Shown here: positions 1,621-11,762 of the stretch, one piece after another | How the letters are laid out: every line of letters starts with the position of its first letter | How positions within the stretch are numbered: the stretch's first letter is position 1 | The notes under the pieces: model-generated | The model's input: only the letters and a program-made list of their open reading frames with translations | Database searches by the model: none | What the model was told of the DNA's origin: nothing | Position numbers and translations under genes: made by a program | Assembly: GCA_905233455.1 (NCBI GenBank) | Contig: CAJOES010000004.1 | Span: forward strand, 1 to 36,929 | Reading direction: 5' to 3' | Length of the DNA stretch: 36,929 nt | Source: an uncultured Synergistales bacterium | Lineage (GTDB): Bacteria; Synergistota; Synergistia; Synergistales; Aminobacteriaceae

Positions 1621-3480
1621 ATGTCAAGAAAAATTTTTGCATGTGTATTCTTTCTGGCTGTAACTGCATGTGCGTTTTACGGCCTTTGCCCCCGCGTTAA
1701 ACTTGAAGCAGAAAATAACAACGTCGCAATCATGGCAGATTACCGAGAAATATCAACGCTGGCGAAAAATTCCGGGCTTTCCGTCGATGACGCTATAGCC
1801 GTACTCATACGGAACGGCGTAACAGGAATGATGGTCAGCGAGCTTACCGGCGACAACATAGAGCACGGAGTCGGCCAGGCAGAGATCAAGACGATACGAG
1901 ACCCCGAAAGAGGCACGGAAGGCACAGCAATATCAATTTCCCAGGCAAGCCCGCACAACGAACTCCTCAATAAATGGTTACGGATAAGATTTGCGCTGTC
2001 AGATGACAGCACCGGCCCGGTAATACTTCCCATGCCGACAAACATGCTCAGGAACTCCGGAATCATTCCCGACATTGACGGGCTTGAAGCCGCAAAACGT
2101 TCCGGACTGCACATATTCTACCGGCCAGCACCGTCTCCCGGCCATCTCTCCGAACGCGCTTCCGTCATGCTCCGTGAGGTGAATGCGAAATACCCCGTGA
2201 GTCTGTTCTCTCCTTCAGGCGAATACGTTTCAGGTTATCCCGATGTCAGCAAAATGTCCCGTGCGGCACATGAACTTCATATCCCCGTTGCCGCAATAGA
2301 GTTTTCCCGGCAGGTTGGCGAGGCACAGCTCAACGCACAGTCATCACCGTTATTGATGCCCCTGCACAGCGTAACGAATGAGGAAATGACTGCAAGGCGC
2401 ATATCCCGCAGTGCATTACGGGACAGGCTGATACGTGCGGCGGTTGAACGTTCCGTGAGGTTACTGCTGTTACGGACCGCCCCCCCTAACACGTCAAACT
2501 TTCTGTTTCAGGATTTCGCGGAGGAAGTCAGGCTTCTCGGCGAGGGCTTGAAGTCCCGCGGCTATAATCTCGTGTGGCCTGAACCAGTGTTCTACGGTGC
2601 GGATCTTCACGCGAGCATATTCACGGCATGGGCATTATCGGCAGTTCTTATGTTCTGTTTATGGCGGTATCTTGTGCGTATGGGCATGAACGGCAACAGG
2701 ACATGCGGAATAATATTTGCGTGTGCGGATATAGTTCTTGCGCTTGGGATATTCTTTGTGCCGTCAGCTGCGAGATTGGCCGGTGCGCTTACAGCCCCGT
2801 TGATCGCGGTTGAAGCCTCACTGCTGGCAATGGACAGCAACAGGAGCAGAAATATTCTTGTATCGTTCGTGTTCGCGGTGGTGTGCGGCCTGGCTCTTGC
2901 GTCATATTTCAGCACAACAAGGTACATGCTAAGGCTTGCGACGTTCTCAGGCGTGAAACTGACTCTGATACTTCCTCCGGTTCTGGTTCTTCTGCATGAT
3001 CTCAAGAGACGCATACACCCCGAAGGACTGACAGAGATTCTTTCGCGTCCGCCGTTATGGGGTGAACTTGTGCTGATAGGGACTCTTCTTGTTGGTGTAG
3101 GGTTAATCATATTCAGGAGCGGCAATGTGGCATTCATACCGGGCTTTGAGGCAGTGATACGCAATACCCTTGAGCGTGTATTGATACTCCGGCCAAGAAC
3201 CCGTGAAGTATTCATCGGTTATCCGTCAGTATTGTTATTGTGCTATCTGGTGAGGAACAAACTTTTTGCCCATTACCGTGAAATCTTCAGGATAGGCGTT
3301 GCGCTGGGTTTCTCGTCGGTGGTAAACAGCTTCTGCCACTTTCACACGCCGTTAATGTTAATCCTTCTGCGTGAGTTTAATGGGTTATGGACGGGCTTAA
3401 TCGTCGGGCTTATTGCTGTATGTCTGGTGAAGTTCGTCGTAATCCCGTTATTGCGTCTGATACGTCCCGTAATATCATGA
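1621..3480 (+). CDS. DUF5693-family multi-pass membrane protein
   Basis: 619 aa ORF, N-terminal signal/TM, extracytoplasmic domain then many TM helices; position directly before csaB with ATGA overlap. Confidence 0.6.
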   Translation: MSRKIFACVFFLAVTACAFYGLCPRVKLEAENNNVAIMADYREISTLAKNSGLSVDDAIAVLIRNGVTGMMVSELTGDNIEHGVGQAEIKTIRDPERGTEGTAISISQASPHNELLNKWLRIRFALSDDSTGPVILPMPTNMLRNSGIIPDIDGLEAAKRSGLHIFYRPAPSPGHLSERASVMLREVNAKYPVSLFSPSGEYVSGYPDVSKMSRAAHELHIPVAAIEFSRQVGEAQLNAQSSPLLMPLHSVTNEEMTARRISRSALRDRLIRAAVERSVRLLLLRTAPPNTSNFLFQDFAEEVRLLGEGLKSRGYNLVWPEPVFYGADLHASIFTAWALSAVLMFCLWRYLVRMGMNGNRTCGIIFACADIVLALGIFFVPSAARLAGALTAPLIAVEASLLAMDSNRSRNILVSFVFAVVCGLALASYFSTTRYMLRLATFSGVKLTLILPPVLVLLHDLKRRIHPEGLTEILSRPPLWGELVLIGTLLVGVGLIIFRSGNVAFIPGFEAVIRNTLERVLILRPRTREVFIGYPSVLLLCYLVRNKLFAHYREIFRIGVALGFSSVVNSFCHFHTPLMLILLREFNGLWTGLIVGLIAVCLVKFVVIPLLRLIRPVIS

Positions 3481-4484
3481 GGCGTTACCGTGCAGCATTG
3501 CTGGGGTATTACGGCTTCGGCAATCTAGGTGATGAGCTGCTTCTTCGTGCATGTCTTGAGCTGTTCGGCAGGTACGGTCTTGAACGCGAAAATATTATAG
3601 TGCTGTCGAATGCTCCGGAAGATACATCAGGAACTTTCGGTGTTGCGTCGGTCAGCAGGTGGCGTTACCGTGATGTTGCGAGGGTACTGCGTCAAAGTGA
3701 TTCTCTTGTGCTTGGAGGCGGAGGACTCTTTCAGGACACTACAAGCGTGATGTCTTGCGTATGGTATTGGGGCATTGTGCGTCTGGCGAAATTTCTCGGC
3801 TGTAAGGTTTTTGCGCTGGGTCAGTCGATCGGGCCGCTGAAGTCCGGACTCTCCCGAATGCTTGCAGGTGATGCGCTGAGGGTCTGCAGGAAAGTTCATG
3901 TGCGTGATGATGCCTCATTAAGGATTGCGGAGTCTCTGAAGTGCCGTGATGTGATTCCCGGCGGGGACTTGGTGATGACGCTGAAACCCCGCACAGGTGA
4001 TACCCCTCTTCATTTCCCCCCTAACTTAGGGGGGACGATAGGGGGTAACGACACATGCAGAATCAAAAAGGGAATAATGCTCCTCAATCTAAGGCCGTGC
4101 GCAGAACTGCAACATTACACGGATATTATTGCACCCCATATCGGCGCAGACACAATCGGCGCGGCACTGTCAGATGAGGACATGAAGGCTCTTGCGTCAT
4201 TGAAGCTCTCACGTGTGGTACGCATTAAGACTCTCGGCGAAGCTCAAGAATTATGGGCTGATGCGTGTTCGGCTGTCGGTATGCGTCTGCATTTCGGCGT
4301 ATTGTCCCGGATATTCCGGACTCCTCTGGCACTCATGCCCTATGACGTTAAGGTCAGAGAATTCGCGGGACAGTCCGGAGTCCCCTGCATTGACGGTGAA
4401 TGGCTTGAACCTGTAATGCCACGTGAAATCCCTGAAGATGACTGCAATGCTGAAGGGATTTGCCGTGAAATCATTTCGCTATGA
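3477..4484 (+). CDS. csaB: Polysaccharide pyruvyl transferase CsaB
   Basis: LLGYYGFGNLGDELLLRA, LVLGGGGLFQDTTS, LGQSIGPL, MRLHFGVLS motifs; ATGA overlap with upstream stop. Confidence 0.85.
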   Translation: MRRYRAALLGYYGFGNLGDELLLRACLELFGRYGLERENIIVLSNAPEDTSGTFGVASVSRWRYRDVARVLRQSDSLVLGGGGLFQDTTSVMSCVWYWGIVRLAKFLGCKVFALGQSIGPLKSGLSRMLAGDALRVCRKVHVRDDASLRIAESLKCRDVIPGGDLVMTLKPRTGDTPLHFPPNLGGTIGGNDTCRIKKGIMLLNLRPCAELQHYTDIIAPHIGADTIGAALSDEDMKALASLKLSRVVRIKTLGEAQELWADACSAVGMRLHFGVLSRIFRTPLALMPYDVKVREFAGQSGVPCIDGEWLEPVMPREIPEDDCNAEGICREIISL

Positions 4485-4496
4485 TAAAATTTGCAC

Positions 4497-5573
4497 ATGG
4501 ACAAGCGCAGGATTAACGAAATAGGATTAAGGTATGTAGAGAGCCTGAAACTTTACGAGGAATACGCCTCAAGAATACGCAATCTCATTCAGGATTTGGT
4601 TGAAATTGAGGGAGTTGAATTTTACGCTATTGAAGGCTGGGCAGAACCTCCCGCAGAACTTTTGCGCATACTCTCATCGCTTGAAGAAAAAGATCTGTCC
4701 GGTGTTGATCTTGTTACTATAAGGGTATTATTGCGTTTCCCTGAAGATGTCCTCAGAATTGAGGAGCTTGTGAAATCAGAATTCCAGATTGATGATACTC
4801 GTTCAGTTCCCTCAAGCGGACTGGAAGATCCTTACCGTTTCGGTTATCCCGCTGTAGTGTATATCCTTGCGCTGTCGGAATCCCGGTCATCTCTGCGGGA
4901 ATGGGCAAAGTATAAGGATTTGAGCTTCAGGCTTGAGTTGCGTACAATGCTTCAGGAGGCATGGGCTACGATATTCCCGAAAGTCAATCAGACGGTAGGC
5001 ACGCTGTCAGAGAAGAAATTAACCCGTGAGCTTGTGCTTCTTGCAGCACTGCTTGAGAAAGCAGATCAGGGGTTCTTGACTTTGCGCAACGAGATCAAGG
5101 ACGAGGCACTTTTAGTCCCGCCGTCAAACCAGCTCGGCAACAAAAAACAGGAAGCTGTTAATGCCGAAAAACTATTTACCGATGAAGAGCTGTATAACCT
5201 TTTCCGTGATGATCCTTCACTTCTTGGCCGCTGGAATGCCGTAACGATTGAGGCGGGATTCCCGGAATTCACGCCGAGTGCCGATTATCTTCGCGAGAGT
5301 TTTTCGCACCTGTGCAATATTCTCAGGGTTTCGGGAATTGATACGCTTTCGGATGTCAAGAAATTTCTTGCCGACATGGAGAATGACAGCAAAGGACTTC
5401 AGCAGCTCAAGACCATTCATGATACTTTCAGGCAAAATGCAAACTGGCGTATGGATCCTTTCTCCGCATTGTTCCTTCTTGTACTGAATTTCAGGTGGGA
5501 AGAATTACGGTATAAGGATTTAGTGAAACTGAACATAAAGAAAGGTTCAGACAGAATCAGCGGCATAGATTAA
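4497..5573 (+). CDS. Divergent RelA/SpoT-like (nucleotidyltransferase-fold) protein with degenerate catalytic motifs and an uncharacterised C-terminal extension
   Basis: By-eye alignment to small alarmone synthetases: DLVTIRVLLRFPEDV ~ D-[IL]-x-G-x-R, FGYPAVVYIL ~ GYRSxH, LELRTMLQEAWATIF ~ EIQIRT..(N)FWATIEH. Confidence 0.6.
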   Translation: MDKRRINEIGLRYVESLKLYEEYASRIRNLIQDLVEIEGVEFYAIEGWAEPPAELLRILSSLEEKDLSGVDLVTIRVLLRFPEDVLRIEELVKSEFQIDDTRSVPSSGLEDPYRFGYPAVVYILALSESRSSLREWAKYKDLSFRLELRTMLQEAWATIFPKVNQTVGTLSEKKLTRELVLLAALLEKADQGFLTLRNEIKDEALLVPPSNQLGNKKQEAVNAEKLFTDEELYNLFRDDPSLLGRWNAVTIEAGFPEFTPSADYLRESFSHLCNILRVSGIDTLSDVKKFLADMENDSKGLQQLKTIHDTFRQNANWRMDPFSALFLLVLNFRWEELRYKDLVKLNIKKGSDRISGID

Positions 5574-5589: not shown

Positions 5590-6222
5590 ATGATGCGCAG
5601 TATGATTTTATGGGGGATAGTCTCATACATTATAGGCTCGTTCCCTACAGGCTATGTAGTAACGAAACTCTTTCACCGCGATGAATCCGGAAAGCTCGAC
5701 CGTCTCGACATAAGGACTATAGGCTCTCATGCAACCGGCGCAACAAACGTCCGGCGCGCTATGGGTTCTGCATGGTCATGGTTCACGGCAGTAGTTGATA
5801 TGCTGAAGGGTGCGTTTGCGCTGCTTCTTGCGGCTCATCTCGTCCCTGCAGAATCTCAGGAGGCAGTAATGGCTCTGTCTGCATTCATGGTCGTTATCGG
5901 GCACAATTACCCGGTGTGGCTTGGGTTTCACGGCGGAAAGGGAGTTGCTACTACTTACGGTACGCTGTTCTTCATATGGCCGTATGAATCTTTTGCTGTT
6001 GTACTTATGTGCGCGGCTGTAATGTTCGCGGTAAGGCATATCACGCACTATGCTTCCCTTGCGTCAATGCTATCACTTATAGCCATGCCTATATTCTTTG
6101 CTATGCTGGGTGCTCCGGGCGTGTTTATCCTGATCTCTGCAATACTGGCAGTATTATGCGTCTTCAGGCACAGAACCAACATAGTACGGCTGATGCACGG
6201 AACGGAAAACAAACTGAAGTAG
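5590..6222 (+). CDS. plsY: Acyl-phosphate:glycerol-3-phosphate acyltransferase
   Basis: SYIIGSFPTGYVV, GSHATGATNVRRAMG, GHNYPVWLGFHGGKGVATTYG motifs; GGAGG RBS. Confidence 0.93.
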   Translation: MMRSMILWGIVSYIIGSFPTGYVVTKLFHRDESGKLDRLDIRTIGSHATGATNVRRAMGSAWSWFTAVVDMLKGAFALLLAAHLVPAESQEAVMALSAFMVVIGHNYPVWLGFHGGKGVATTYGTLFFIWPYESFAVVLMCAAVMFAVRHITHYASLASMLSLIAMPIFFAMLGAPGVFILISAILAVLCVFRHRTNIVRLMHGTENKLK

Positions 6223-6232
6223 AATTGAATGC

Positions 6233-6266
6233 AGGCTCCCGTAAATAATGCGGGGGCTATATTTTT
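6233..6266 (+). terminator. Rho-independent terminator after plsY
   Basis: GCTCCCG (6235-6241) / CGGGGGC (6251-6257) hairpin followed by TATATTTTT. Confidence 0.65.
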
Positions 6267-7306
6267 ATCCTCCCGGAACCCGGAACAAACTCACCGACAA
6301 TTTCAGCTCTCTCAAAACCTTTAAGCCTCGCATGATTCAGTATCTCTTCCGCGCTGTCAGGACTCACGGCAAGCAGTAATCCTCCCGAAGTCTGCGGATC
6401 AAATATCACGTCCATGATTGTGCGTTCGCATGTGCCGTCGATGAATCCCTCATAGGCATCACGATTCCTGTAGCTCCCTTCAGGTATCAGCCCCATGTCT
6501 GCAAGCTCCTGAACTCCCGCGATAACCGGAAGACTCTGCGCGAATATCCTGCAGTCCAGATTGTCCCCAAGCATGTCCAGCAGATGACCGGCAAGCCCGA
6601 AGCCGGTAACGTCCGTAGCCGCATGAACCTTAGCGTGAAGACCGTCCGGAAGGGATAACATGTTCAGTGCTGTCATGCTGTGCATTGCTTCAGTTATCGT
6701 TGACTCGTCCTCTGTCATGTCAGCCTTGATTGCTGTAACAGCTATTCCTGTACCAAGCGGTTTGGTCAGTATCAATTTATCCCCCGGCAATGCCCCGGTA
6801 GTCCGCCACAATCTGCCCTTCTCCGTCTCTCCGTACACAACGAGGCCGTATTTAGGTTCGGAGTCCTGTACGCTGTGCCCCCCGGCAAGAAACGCCCCGG
6901 CACTCCTTACGCGCTCAAATCCTCCCTCAAGCACACGGCTCAATACGTCAAGCCCCAGAGTGTCCGCAGGGAAACATACGACATTAAGCGCAACAACCGG
7001 CCTTCCTCCCATAGCGAATACGTCGCTGATAGAATTTGCCGCCGCAATCTGCCCCCACGTGAACGGGTCATCTGATACGGGCGTGATGAAATCTACGGTG
7101 AGAATACCCAGCCGACCGCCGTCGAACTCAAACACTGCCGCATCTTCTCCGCTGTTCCATGTTGCCGAGATTCTTTCGCCGTAAACTTGAGGAATGTTCG
7201 CAAGTACTTTATTGAGATCCGCCGGACCTATCTTAGCCGCTCACCCGCTGGAGTGTGATAGCTCGGTTAATCTCTTCTTCTCGTTCTGTGAATCACCGCA
7301 TGACAC
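6257..7306 (-). CDS. selD: Selenide, water dikinase (selenophosphate synthetase), selenoprotein form with in-frame UGA (Sec) at 7241-7243
   Basis: Extending the 292 aa ORF upstream gives GTG start at 7306 with GGAGG 9 nt away and [64 protein letters not shown]...; U lies at the catalytic Cys/Sec position; starts inside 3' end of selB. Confidence 0.93.
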
Positions 7307-8780
7307 GCCCGTTTTCCTCCCTTCTTGTTATGCCTTTGCGGTCAAGATACTCAAGCACAGGGACAATATATTTTCTTGAAGTGTTCAGAATATCTCTTAT
7401 TGATGCAGGAGTTATTATACCGTCAATGCCGCGCAGAATAGTCATCAGCTCCTCTTCAAGCTCATTCACCAGCACCAACCCTTCAGGCAGCAATGCAAGT
7501 TCACCGGAATTTTCCATTGCACGAAATATAGAATCAAATATTTTTGCCGGTAATGTACTCTCCTGCTGAAGTTCATTTCGCGTAACAAGCCTCCATTTAT
7601 GAGACAGGCATATTTTGCGCAGAGTATTTTTGTGTGCGCTGAAAGAATCTTCGGGAATTGCATAAAAATTTTTGTTCTGTGCCGGTGCAGATTCTTCTTC
7701 AGGTTTCGGCGTTTCAGGGAAAATTACCTGTCCTCCTCCTATCGTGATTAACGGGCTGTAGAAACGCAGTATGAACCTCTGCCCGTCCATGCAGACCGCA
7801 GGAGCTTCAAGAATCAGCCTTGCATTACCCTCATTGCCCGGCTCAATCTGTTTCATGCCGCGAAGTGATACCCGCGCAAGAATCTCCGACGTTCCTATAT
7901 GAACATGTACCCTCTGCATGTGCTTCAGCGGTGTCCGGACTCCCGGAAGAATCTTCACGGAGACATTAAGGCGTTTCACCGGCCTGAACTCCCCGGAGCA
8001 TATGACCTCACCGCGAGAAATCTCCCCTGCCGGAACGCCAGCTATATTCAGTGCAGCTCTCTGTCCTGCCCGTGCTGTATGAACCGTCCGTGAATGTATC
8101 TGTATTCCGCGTATCCTCCCGGTATGTCCAGACGGCAGAATTTCAGCAGTATCATTCGTGCTTATGCTTCCGTGATATACCGTTCCGGTTGCGACAGTCC
8201 CGAAACCTGCAATGCTGAATACACGGTCTAAAGGCATGAAGAAATCTCCGGAAGGATCGCGGGGTTTTGCCCTGTCTGCAAGATTCTGAATCTCCATGCG
8301 CAGCAAATCAAGATTTTTGCCCGTAACTGCTGACACTGATATTACCGGCCTTCCTTCAAGAAACGTATTGCGGGTAAATTCCTTCACGTCCTCAAGAAGT
8401 GCAGGTGTCGTTTCTGTTCTGTCCGTCTTAGTGATTACCGTTATGCCGTCATGAATCCCCAGAAGCTGCATTATCGCGAGATGTTCGCGTGTCTGTGGCA
8501 TGATCCCTTCATCCGCCGCAATCACCAGCAATGCCGCATCAACACCTGCCGCCCCTGCAGCCATGTGGCGTATGAATTTCTCGTGTCCCGGAACGTCAAC
8601 TATGCTCACAGTTCTGCCGTCGTCAAGGGACATATGCGCAAACCCAAGCTCTATAGTCATTCCGCGTTTCTTCTCTTCCGGAAGCCGGTCGCAGTTTATG
8701 CCAGTAAGTGCTTCTATTAGTGCCGTCTTGCCGTGATCTATATGGCCTGATGTTGCGATGATTATTGCTGTCTCATTCAC
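7293..8780 (-). CDS. selB: Selenocysteine-specific elongation factor
   Basis: [56 protein letters not shown]-terminal winged-helix-like region; GTG start at 8780 overlapping selA stop. Confidence 0.95.
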
Positions 8781-10110
8781 TGAAGATTTTTGCGACAGAT
8801 TCCGCAATGATTTTCGCCTCGCCTTCCTGAAGCGTGCGGACATGGAATATCACTCCGCCGTCTTTTGCCGTGCATATCACCGGTATATCCATTGAGCGCA
8901 ATTCAGCCTGAATGTTGCCGCGAACGAACACTCCCCAGCCCTTGAGCATTTCGCCGGGACATGAGCCGCCCCCCGATGCGTCATCAGTCTCAATCACATG
9001 AACTTCTGCCCGTATCAGCCGCGATATTTCCCGCGCAAGTTCCTCTGCATTATGCCTTAATGTATCCGTGTCAGTGCTGAGCATTCTTATTGTCGGGATT
9101 CTGCCGTATTCGCCGTTCAGGTAAAGCCTTAATGTAGCTTCAAGTGCCGCTATGGTCATCTTGCCGGGTCTTAATGCGCGGTTCATCGGGTGATGCTTCA
9201 GCCTGTCTATGAGGTCTCTGCGTCCTGCAATGATTCCCGACTGAGGCCCGCCGAAAATCTTATCGCCGGAAAAAGTTACGATGTCCGCACCGTCATGTAT
9301 GCACTGCCTGATTTCGGGTTCTCCGGGAAAATTCCCTGCAGCATACCCGCTCCCTGCATCGTCCATGAAGATTATGTTGTGTGAATGCGCAAGTTCTGCC
9401 AGCTCTTTGCGTTCAGGTTCATGCGTGAAGCCCGTAATCCTGAAGTTAGAGCGGTGTACTTTCATGATCATTGACGTATCAGGGGTAATTGCGGCCTCAT
9501 AGTCCTTCAGGTACGTGCGGTTTGTCGTCCCCACTTCGGACAGTTTTGCTCCCGACAGACTCATGATGTCCGGAAGCCTGAAAGCCCCGCCGATCTCTAC
9601 CAGTTCACCGCGTGATACGATTACTTCCCGGCCATGCGCAAAAGCATACAGGCACAGCATTACAGCTCCTGCATTGTTGTTGACGGCTAATGCGGACTCC
9701 GCACCGGTGAGCGAGCATATCAGTCCTTCGACGTGAATATTTCTGCCGGCTCTCGTCCCGTTCTCCGTGTCGTATTCTATTGCGGTGTAATATTTCGCCG
9801 AAGTTTCAGCAGCATTGATGGCTTCTTCCGGCAGCAATGACCGTCCCAGATTCGTATGTATCACTACGCCTGTTGCATTGATGACGCGTTTTAAGCCCGA
9901 ATGCGTGAATGACTTTATGCAGGTGCGTCTGAACTCCTCCCACGAAAAAATTTCGCTGTCATTATCCTTCAGCCTTGAGCGTAATATCTGCAGGTTTCTG
10001 CTGATTATATCCTTCACATAAGCCCGGCCAAGCCTCGCAATCCATGAGCATACCCAGTCCTGAGACAAAATCATATCCATAGCCGGAATGGTCTTCATGT
10101 TCTCTTTCAT
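8773..10110 (-). CDS. selA: L-seryl-tRNA(Sec) selenium transferase
   Basis: INATGVVIHTNLGRSLL, EVGTTNRTYLKDYE, FSGDKIFGGPQSGIIAGR; start could alternatively be ATG at 10098. Confidence 0.95.
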   Translation of the reverse strand: MKENMKTIPAMDMILSQDWVCSWIARLGRAYVKDIISRNLQILRSRLKDNDSEIFSWEEFRRTCIKSFTHSGLKRVINATGVVIHTNLGRSLLPEEAINAAETSAKYYTAIEYDTENGTRAGRNIHVEGLICSLTGAESALAVNNNAGAVMLCLYAFAHGREVIVSRGELVEIGGAFRLPDIMSLSGAKLSEVGTTNRTYLKDYEAAITPDTSMIMKVHRSNFRITGFTHEPERKELAELAHSHNIIFMDDAGSGYAAGNFPGEPEIRQCIHDGADIVTFSGDKIFGGPQSGIIAGRRDLIDRLKHHPMNRALRPGKMTIAALEATLRLYLNGEYGRIPTIRMLSTDTDTLRHNAEELAREISRLIRAEVHVIETDDASGGGSCPGEMLKGWGVFVRGNIQAELRSMDIPVICTAKDGGVIFHVRTLQEGEAKIIAESVAKIFSE

Positions 10111-11654: not shown

Positions 11655-11665
11655 CACGCAGAAGG

Positions 11666-11762
11666 CGGAAGTGCATGGGAATCGAACCCATCAGAGGCAG
11701 CCGTTAATCTGTCTCTCACCGGGTTTGAAGCCCGGGTTCATCACCAGACAAACATCACTTCC
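11666..11762 (-). tRNA. selC: tRNA-Sec (anticodon UCA at 11726-11728)
   Basis: Reverse complement GGAAGTGATGTTTGTCTGGTGATGAACCCGGGCTTCAAACCCGGTGAGAGACAGATTAACGGCTGCCTCTGATGGGTTCGATTCCCATGCACTTCCG: long acceptor arm, CTTCAAA anticodon loop, long variable arm, GGTTCGATTCC T-arm, discriminator G; CCA not encoded. Confidence 0.93.

Follow-up and report, generated by a model that had tools for sequence, protein, structure and literature searches.

A conserved RelA/SpoT-fold protein of Synergistota is probably a non-catalytic relative of small alarmone synthetases

The gene at positions 4497 to 5573 of the window (the whole 36,929-nucleotide stretch of contig CAJOES010000004.1 that was analysed) encodes a protein with the RelA/SpoT fold which, judged from its sequence, is probably a non-catalytic pseudoenzyme relative of the small alarmone synthetases (SAS). 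Few bacterial signalling proteins have been studied as thoroughly as RSH enzymes, and here successive stages of such a conversion are still found together within one phylum and one orthologous gene. The genome is that of an uncultured member of the Synergistota (2.49 Mb in 166 contigs, 96% complete), whose closest relatives are rumen metagenome-assembled genomes and uncultured Fretibacterium. The gene and the main parts of its product are as follows:

4497..5573, plus strand: RelA/SpoT-like pseudo-synthetase gene, 358 aa; ATG start, stop-free frame in orthologues
4614..4991, plus strand: synthetase-fold domain, residues 40-165; hmmsearch match to RelQ/RelP at E 3.5e-9, AlphaFold and Foldseek
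4992..5108, plus strand: long helix, residues 166-204; AlphaFold model
5166..5570, plus strand: C-terminal all-helical domain, residues 224-358 (~135 aa); AlphaFold pLDDT 94.0, pTM 0.89

The ATG at 4497 is the start conserved among homologues, with a TTG at 4491 as a possible alternative. Orthologues throughout the genus are free of internal stops and share 75-85% identity with the query protein. The dN/dS ratio was 0.051 and 0.078 for the whole gene in the only two pairs for which dS came out finite, and 0.025-0.05 for the synthetase domain; these figures are rough, dS being near saturation and, for more distant pairs, saturated so that the ratio is undefined. The gene is thus a conserved pseudo-synthetase under strong purifying selection and not a decaying one. 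A mobile or phage origin was rejected, as viral contigs held no relative and plasmid matches were either distant and SAS-type or weak. The protein had no match in NCBIfam.

Taken alone, the query is recognised poorly as a member of the superfamily: the Pfam RelA_SpoT model (PF04607) gave 16.5 bits (E=0.01; cut-off 27), and phmmer against the PDB ranked RelQ first at only E=0.003. Orthologues at loci L070, L073 and L089 exceed the same Pfam cut-off, with 59, 56 and 32 bits, and a profile of 41 family sequences found RelQ/RelP in the PDB at E=3.5e-9, followed by other small synthetases. It is this family profile and these intermediate homologues that make the assignment certain for a protein that by itself falls below the Pfam threshold, and we regard the RelA/SpoT fold as established beyond reasonable doubt. 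The AlphaFold model (mean pLDDT 82.7) likewise retrieved RelQ/RelP as the top folds in a Foldseek search of the PDB (E=1.2e-7, probability 1.00), with TM scores by target length of up to 0.73 for RelQ and up to 0.76 for B. subtilis RelP. The preliminary description, made from the letters alone, had proposed a RelA/SpoT synthetase fold from motif alignments with small alarmone synthetases drawn by eye, and had named structure prediction as a check; the alignments were correct, and profile searches, intermediate homologues and the predicted structure all uphold the fold. Matches to adenylate kinase and SecA in the PDB searches were weak (no better than E 0.04), fell outside the synthetase part and were set aside as chance.

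To describe the active site, 18 substrate-binding and catalytic positions were mapped in the numbering of B. subtilis RelQ, with roles assigned from PMC5794853 and from what is generally known of the family. The segments concerned, together with a loop specific to this family, are:

4635..4658, plus strand: former ATP site GWAEPPAE, residues 47-54; RelQ G45-R46-V-K48...S52; R46W, K48E, S52E
4707..4709, plus strand: Asp71, equivalent to RelQ Asp72 (Mg ligand), retained; present in 18/19 f1 representatives
4842..4862, plus strand: G-loop remnant GYPAVVY, residues 116-122; guanosine-stacking Tyr117 retained; R117P, H120V
4884..4904, plus strand: R130-x-x-LREW loop, family-specific, between strands 4 and 5; R130, E135 and W136 invariant in the A1 family
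4929..4946, plus strand: RLELRT, residues 145-150; RelQ E139-I-Q141-I-R-T; catalytic Glu lost (E139R)
4974..4979, plus strand: Phe160-Pro161 where the canonical Glu-His (E154-H155) stands

Thirteen of the 18 positions are changed in the query (R46W, K48E, S52E, K56I, R59S, R117P, S118A, H120V, E139R, Q141E, N148E, E154F and H155P), including Asn148 of the RelQ pppGpp site, which is Glu here; D72, R77, Y116, R143 and T144 are retained. The loss of catalytic features reported in the preliminary description is therefore confirmed at 13/18 positions, E139R among them. Asp72 is a Mg ligand in RelQ, and RelQ/RelP depend critically on Tyr116/151 to bind guanosine (PMC5794853). Across 19 representatives of f1, the family to which the query belongs, Y116, R143 and the substituted Pro117 never vary and 18 keep D72, whereas the catalytic Glu position varies among R, T, S, I and K; conservation is 93% at the retained active-site positions versus 64% at the lost ones. 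The retained D72 and Y116 could be structural. With 13/18 canonical positions lost and the catalytic Glu position drifting, (p)ppGpp synthesis by the query is very unlikely, and on its residues the protein is, with high probability, not a (p)ppGpp synthetase.

The A1 profile of this protein family matched 89 of the 188 sampled Synergistota genomes, a few of these matches (for example in G070, G098 and G112) being to a canonical SAS or a short fragment only. The members form a graded series, in which f4 is nearly canonical (10-13 of the 18 positions retained at L072, L073 and L070), f6 intermediate (8-10), f1 with the query dead (5-7), and f5, together with one f1 genome carrying an f5-like copy, fully eroded (1-2), as are the versions in f2, f7 and f10; Pfam scores drop in the same order. 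The last of these, 290-330 aa long, were found in four genomes, and a profile built from them recovers the A-type family reciprocally, with the query at E=1.7e-13. Each genome that has the gene carries either the A-type or the eroded type, never both, and nearly always as a single copy (G064 has two A-type copies). In the tree the query lies deep within a supported f1 clade, while f5 and the chemotaxis-linked set described below are joined on long branches, whose placement is unsure. Orthology across f4, f5, f6 and deep f1 is supported by gene order, because the gene directly follows a tetratricopeptide-repeat (TPR) protein there.

Two f4 orthologues, L070 and L073, retain the catalytic Glu and the Mg-binding Asp along with 12-13 of the 18 positions, so that inactivation is a derived state, reached inside a single orthologous gene; the f4 members nearest to the canonical state may, by their residues, still be active enzymes. 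The preliminary description had asked whether the substitutions are shared among homologues, and had counted homologues with canonical catalytic residues against its reading. The substitutions are not family-wide, and such homologues do exist in f4, yet what they reveal is the direction of change. A further f4 orthologue, L071 (G018:C100:72314-73265), is split into two frames by an assembly error or a young frameshift.

At the other end of the series, the eroded orthologue lies in a chemotaxis-flagellar cluster and adjoins CheB in all four f2/f7/f10 genomes (loci L098, L099, L100 and L101, in G182, G010, G121 and G183, respectively) and directly adjoins an MCP gene in three of them (f7, f10); CheC/CheD, FlgI and a sigma factor gene lie near it in f10, f7 and f2. 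Even these members partly retain the R130-x-x-LREW loop.

The retained residues bear most directly on the possibility that the protein is a guanine-nucleotide sensor, in which the dead site would still hold (p)ppGpp or GTP by way of Tyr117 and Asp71, switching the C-terminal domain on binding. Conservation of the equivalents of Tyr116 (19/19) and Asp72 (18/19) in f1 favours such a sensor, as does the critical part that this Tyr plays in guanosine binding by RelQ/RelP (PMC5794853), but the phosphate-binding K48, K56, R59, R117 and H120 are lost, and the gene persists in f5 and in the chemotaxis clusters although Tyr and Asp are both gone there. We consider this explanation tenable though doubtful.

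Synthesis of (p)ppGpp is supplied elsewhere, since nearly every genome has a separate canonical Rel: RelA_SpoT matches, mostly in Rel-sized ORFs, were found in 182 of the 188 Synergistota genomes (61 of 63 genera). The query genome encodes one long Rel (an 817-aa frame, G000:C18) with an intact synthetase active site, and no extra canonical SAS was found in it. A few members of the query genus also carry a canonical SAS of ~350 aa (L061, L062, L067, L068 and L069), which is homologous to the query over residues ~25-250 (hhalign probability 98.6%). Counted over the 18 positions, the genome's own Rel retains 15, the SAS of the sister genomes 14 and the query 5. That the query regulates the true Rel or an accessory SAS by hetero-oligomerisation would fit their common fold family, the presence of Rel in nearly every genome, and a principle familiar from other enzymes, by which inactive paralogues control active ones (for example PMC5201418). 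This is nevertheless unlikely: the closest canonical SAS is confined to those few genomes, the RSH-like gene shows no genomic link to rel, and many Synergistota genomes have Rel without any RSH-like protein.

The immediate neighbours of the gene in the window are:

3477..4484, plus strand: polysaccharide pyruvyl transferase (CsaB-like), upstream neighbour; Pfam PF04230; longest frame from 3387
5590..6222, plus strand: plsY (glycerol-3-phosphate acyltransferase), downstream neighbour; Pfam PF02660; synteny

The order RSH-like gene then plsY is kept in most of the query's clade, and is preceded in part of the genus by a DUF5693 gene and the adjoining CsaB-type pyruvyl transferase gene. Deep f1 genomes encode, in succession, the TPR protein, the RSH-like protein, an ATP-grasp/acyl-CoA-synthetase-like protein (a name read from the sequence by eye) and PlsY. 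These two arrangements favour a protein of an envelope or lipid operon, acting with PlsY, or with PlsY and the formerly adjacent acyl-CoA-synthetase-like protein, in the control of membrane lipids; yet f5, f6 and several f1 genera lack the PlsY adjacency and no PlsY lies near the chemotaxis-linked orthologues, which leaves this explanation rather improbable.

A selenium gene group lies farther downstream in the window:

~6257-7270, minus strand: selD, with an in-frame TGA at 7241-7243 in SGUAAK context, at the SelD active-site position
7293-8843, minus strand: selB, near selD
11664-11762, minus strand: tRNA-Sec, near selD

SelD is itself probably a selenoprotein, as read from this codon, and the mechanically called selD ORF (start 7135) is accordingly taken to be too short.

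A more widely shared neighbour is the TPR protein, which the RSH-like gene directly follows in deep f1, f4, f5 and f6 genomes. It has the look of a bitopic membrane protein, with an acidic, low-complexity N-terminal tail, one hydrophobic segment and then TPR repeats; the tail is probably cytosolic. The tail motifs LExWLR(G) and (G)LPV(V/I) are near-invariant and among the best conserved stretches of the protein (f1, f6), and G034 and G100 retain the tail despite a strong reduction of the TPR part. Proteins with the tail motifs (LExWLRG...PV(V/I)) were recorded at L029, L086, L128, L129, L136, L137, L158 and L162-L170. In other f1 genera the TPR gene is unlinked from the RSH-like gene. The tail protein was found in 13 genera, counted by hand from the match list over long ORFs with the tail only, and all 13 have the RSH-like gene, against an A1 tally of 25 genera among 63 in all (hypergeometric 5e-7, ignoring phylogeny). 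Two genomes of low completeness (G033, G099) have the tail without an RSH-like match, and G030 is missing precisely the TPR and RSH-like genes, its flanking genes being directly joined, while its congeners have both. Adjacency and co-occurrence together suggest that the TPR/tail protein is a candidate membrane partner of the RSH-like protein.

Searches with three different profiles found no tail-bearing partner in the query genus, and no tail protein was detected in g8, g11 or g20, although g8 and g11, the genera nearest to that of the query, have the RSH-like protein; partnership with the tail is therefore not the whole function in the query genus, g8 and g11. An ORF of ~290 aa located 6-10 kb from the RSH-like gene matched the second half of the tail profile weakly (E 0.002-0.014; G025:C10:8341, G026:C35:5456, G029:C51:58714, G041:C198:11353 and G043:C58:88461), which may be chance.

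Of the three options raised in the preliminary description (a nucleotide sensor, a regulator of Rel or an enzyme of changed chemistry), the last is the least likely, because the catalytic Glu position drifts freely. The retained Mg-ligand Asp and guanosine Tyr, and the strong selection on the synthetase domain, might be expected of a protein still performing another nucleotidyl or pyrophosphoryl transfer, but the position of the second metal/catalytic Glu accepts R, T, S, I or K and the residues of the ATP site are lost, so that we give altered catalysis very little credence.

The C-terminal domain had no match in Pfam, and comparison of its fold with the PDB and with BFVD (viral models) gave nothing with E below 1. 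The preliminary description had likewise left this part unassigned, although the ~150 aa that it allowed come to ~135 (residues 224-358). Homology to the C-terminus of the canonical ~350-aa SAS, plausible by eye, was rejected at an hhalign probability of 0.3%. A fused toxin-antitoxin or anti-phage protein of the CapRel kind is scarcely credible: the two-domain layout of the query (SYNTH plus C-terminal domain) and the weak match of its synthetase part to PDC-S33 in PADLOC are outweighed by a fixed place in the chromosome, conservation over long times, a dead active site and a helical C-terminal domain that differs from the CapRel pseudo-zinc-finger.

On balance we favour a pseudo-alarmone-synthetase that has given up (p)ppGpp synthesis and acts as a regulatory adaptor or sensor; the computed basis comprises the fold, the loss of residues, selection, the graded orthologues, the helical C-terminus and the linkage to the membrane protein or the chemotaxis cluster. 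A role mainly as a protein-binding adaptor appears somewhat more probable than not, and binding of (p)ppGpp, GTP or another guanine nucleotide is possible without being the expected outcome. The ancestor would have been an active SAS that carried an additional helical domain and worked beside a membrane signalling protein. Catalysis would then have been abandoned and the protein-binding surfaces (the LREW loop, the long helix and the C-terminal domain) kept, perhaps with a guanine-nucleotide pocket formed by Tyr117, Asp71 and Arg76; where the membrane partner is present, the protein may dock on it and relay a nucleotide or envelope signal. Tentatively, a single orthologous gene may have begun as a probable (p)ppGpp synthetase and become a module without catalysis, one that senses guanine nucleotide, attaches to the cytosolic tail of a bitopic protein or does both, and it may separately have been recruited to a chemotaxis cluster. 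The use to which a synthetase fold is put after synthesis ends is directly testable here, and the tail protein, with its short conserved motif, is a candidate partner at the membrane.

Compared with known systems, the query shares with RelQ/RelP (YjbM, YwaC) the synthetase fold, a similar length of that part, and Asp72 and Tyr116, and differs in its 13/18 changed positions, the lost catalytic Glu and the extra helical C-terminal domain. The SAS fold is thus present, but the ATP-binding R/K/S residues and the catalytic pair of Asp and Glu are not, Asp72 alone remaining; the protein should therefore not be classified among the small alarmone synthetases. Within its genus, the canonical ~350-aa SAS has the key catalytic residues and a C-terminus not detectably related. 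Rel of the same genome shares the synthetase domain but is 817 aa long, has an intact site and is encoded elsewhere; the long-RSH layout of HD hydrolase, synthetase and C-terminal regulatory domains is absent from the query, whose 358 aa contain a weak PF04607-like region only. CapRel (fused toxSAS, PDB 7ztb/9erv) has a SYNTH domain followed by a regulatory C-terminal part of ~130 aa and gives weak sequence and fold matches, whereas the C-terminus of the query is all-helical with no pseudo-zinc-finger match, and its conserved chromosomal locus shows no sign of defence genes. Arg79 and Arg116, which coordinate adenine in CapRel (PMC9712102), correspond to Trp48 and Arg76, so that this pair is not preserved. 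A survey of RSH proteins (PMC3153485) distinguished 12 SAS groups, and its group table names Synergistetes under Rel only. Our literature search found no described pseudoenzyme branch of small alarmone synthetases and no paper pairing 'alarmone synthetase' with 'pseudoenzyme'. The features by which pseudoenzymes are recognised, namely an enzyme fold, a lost catalytic motif and a gene under selection, are all found in the query.
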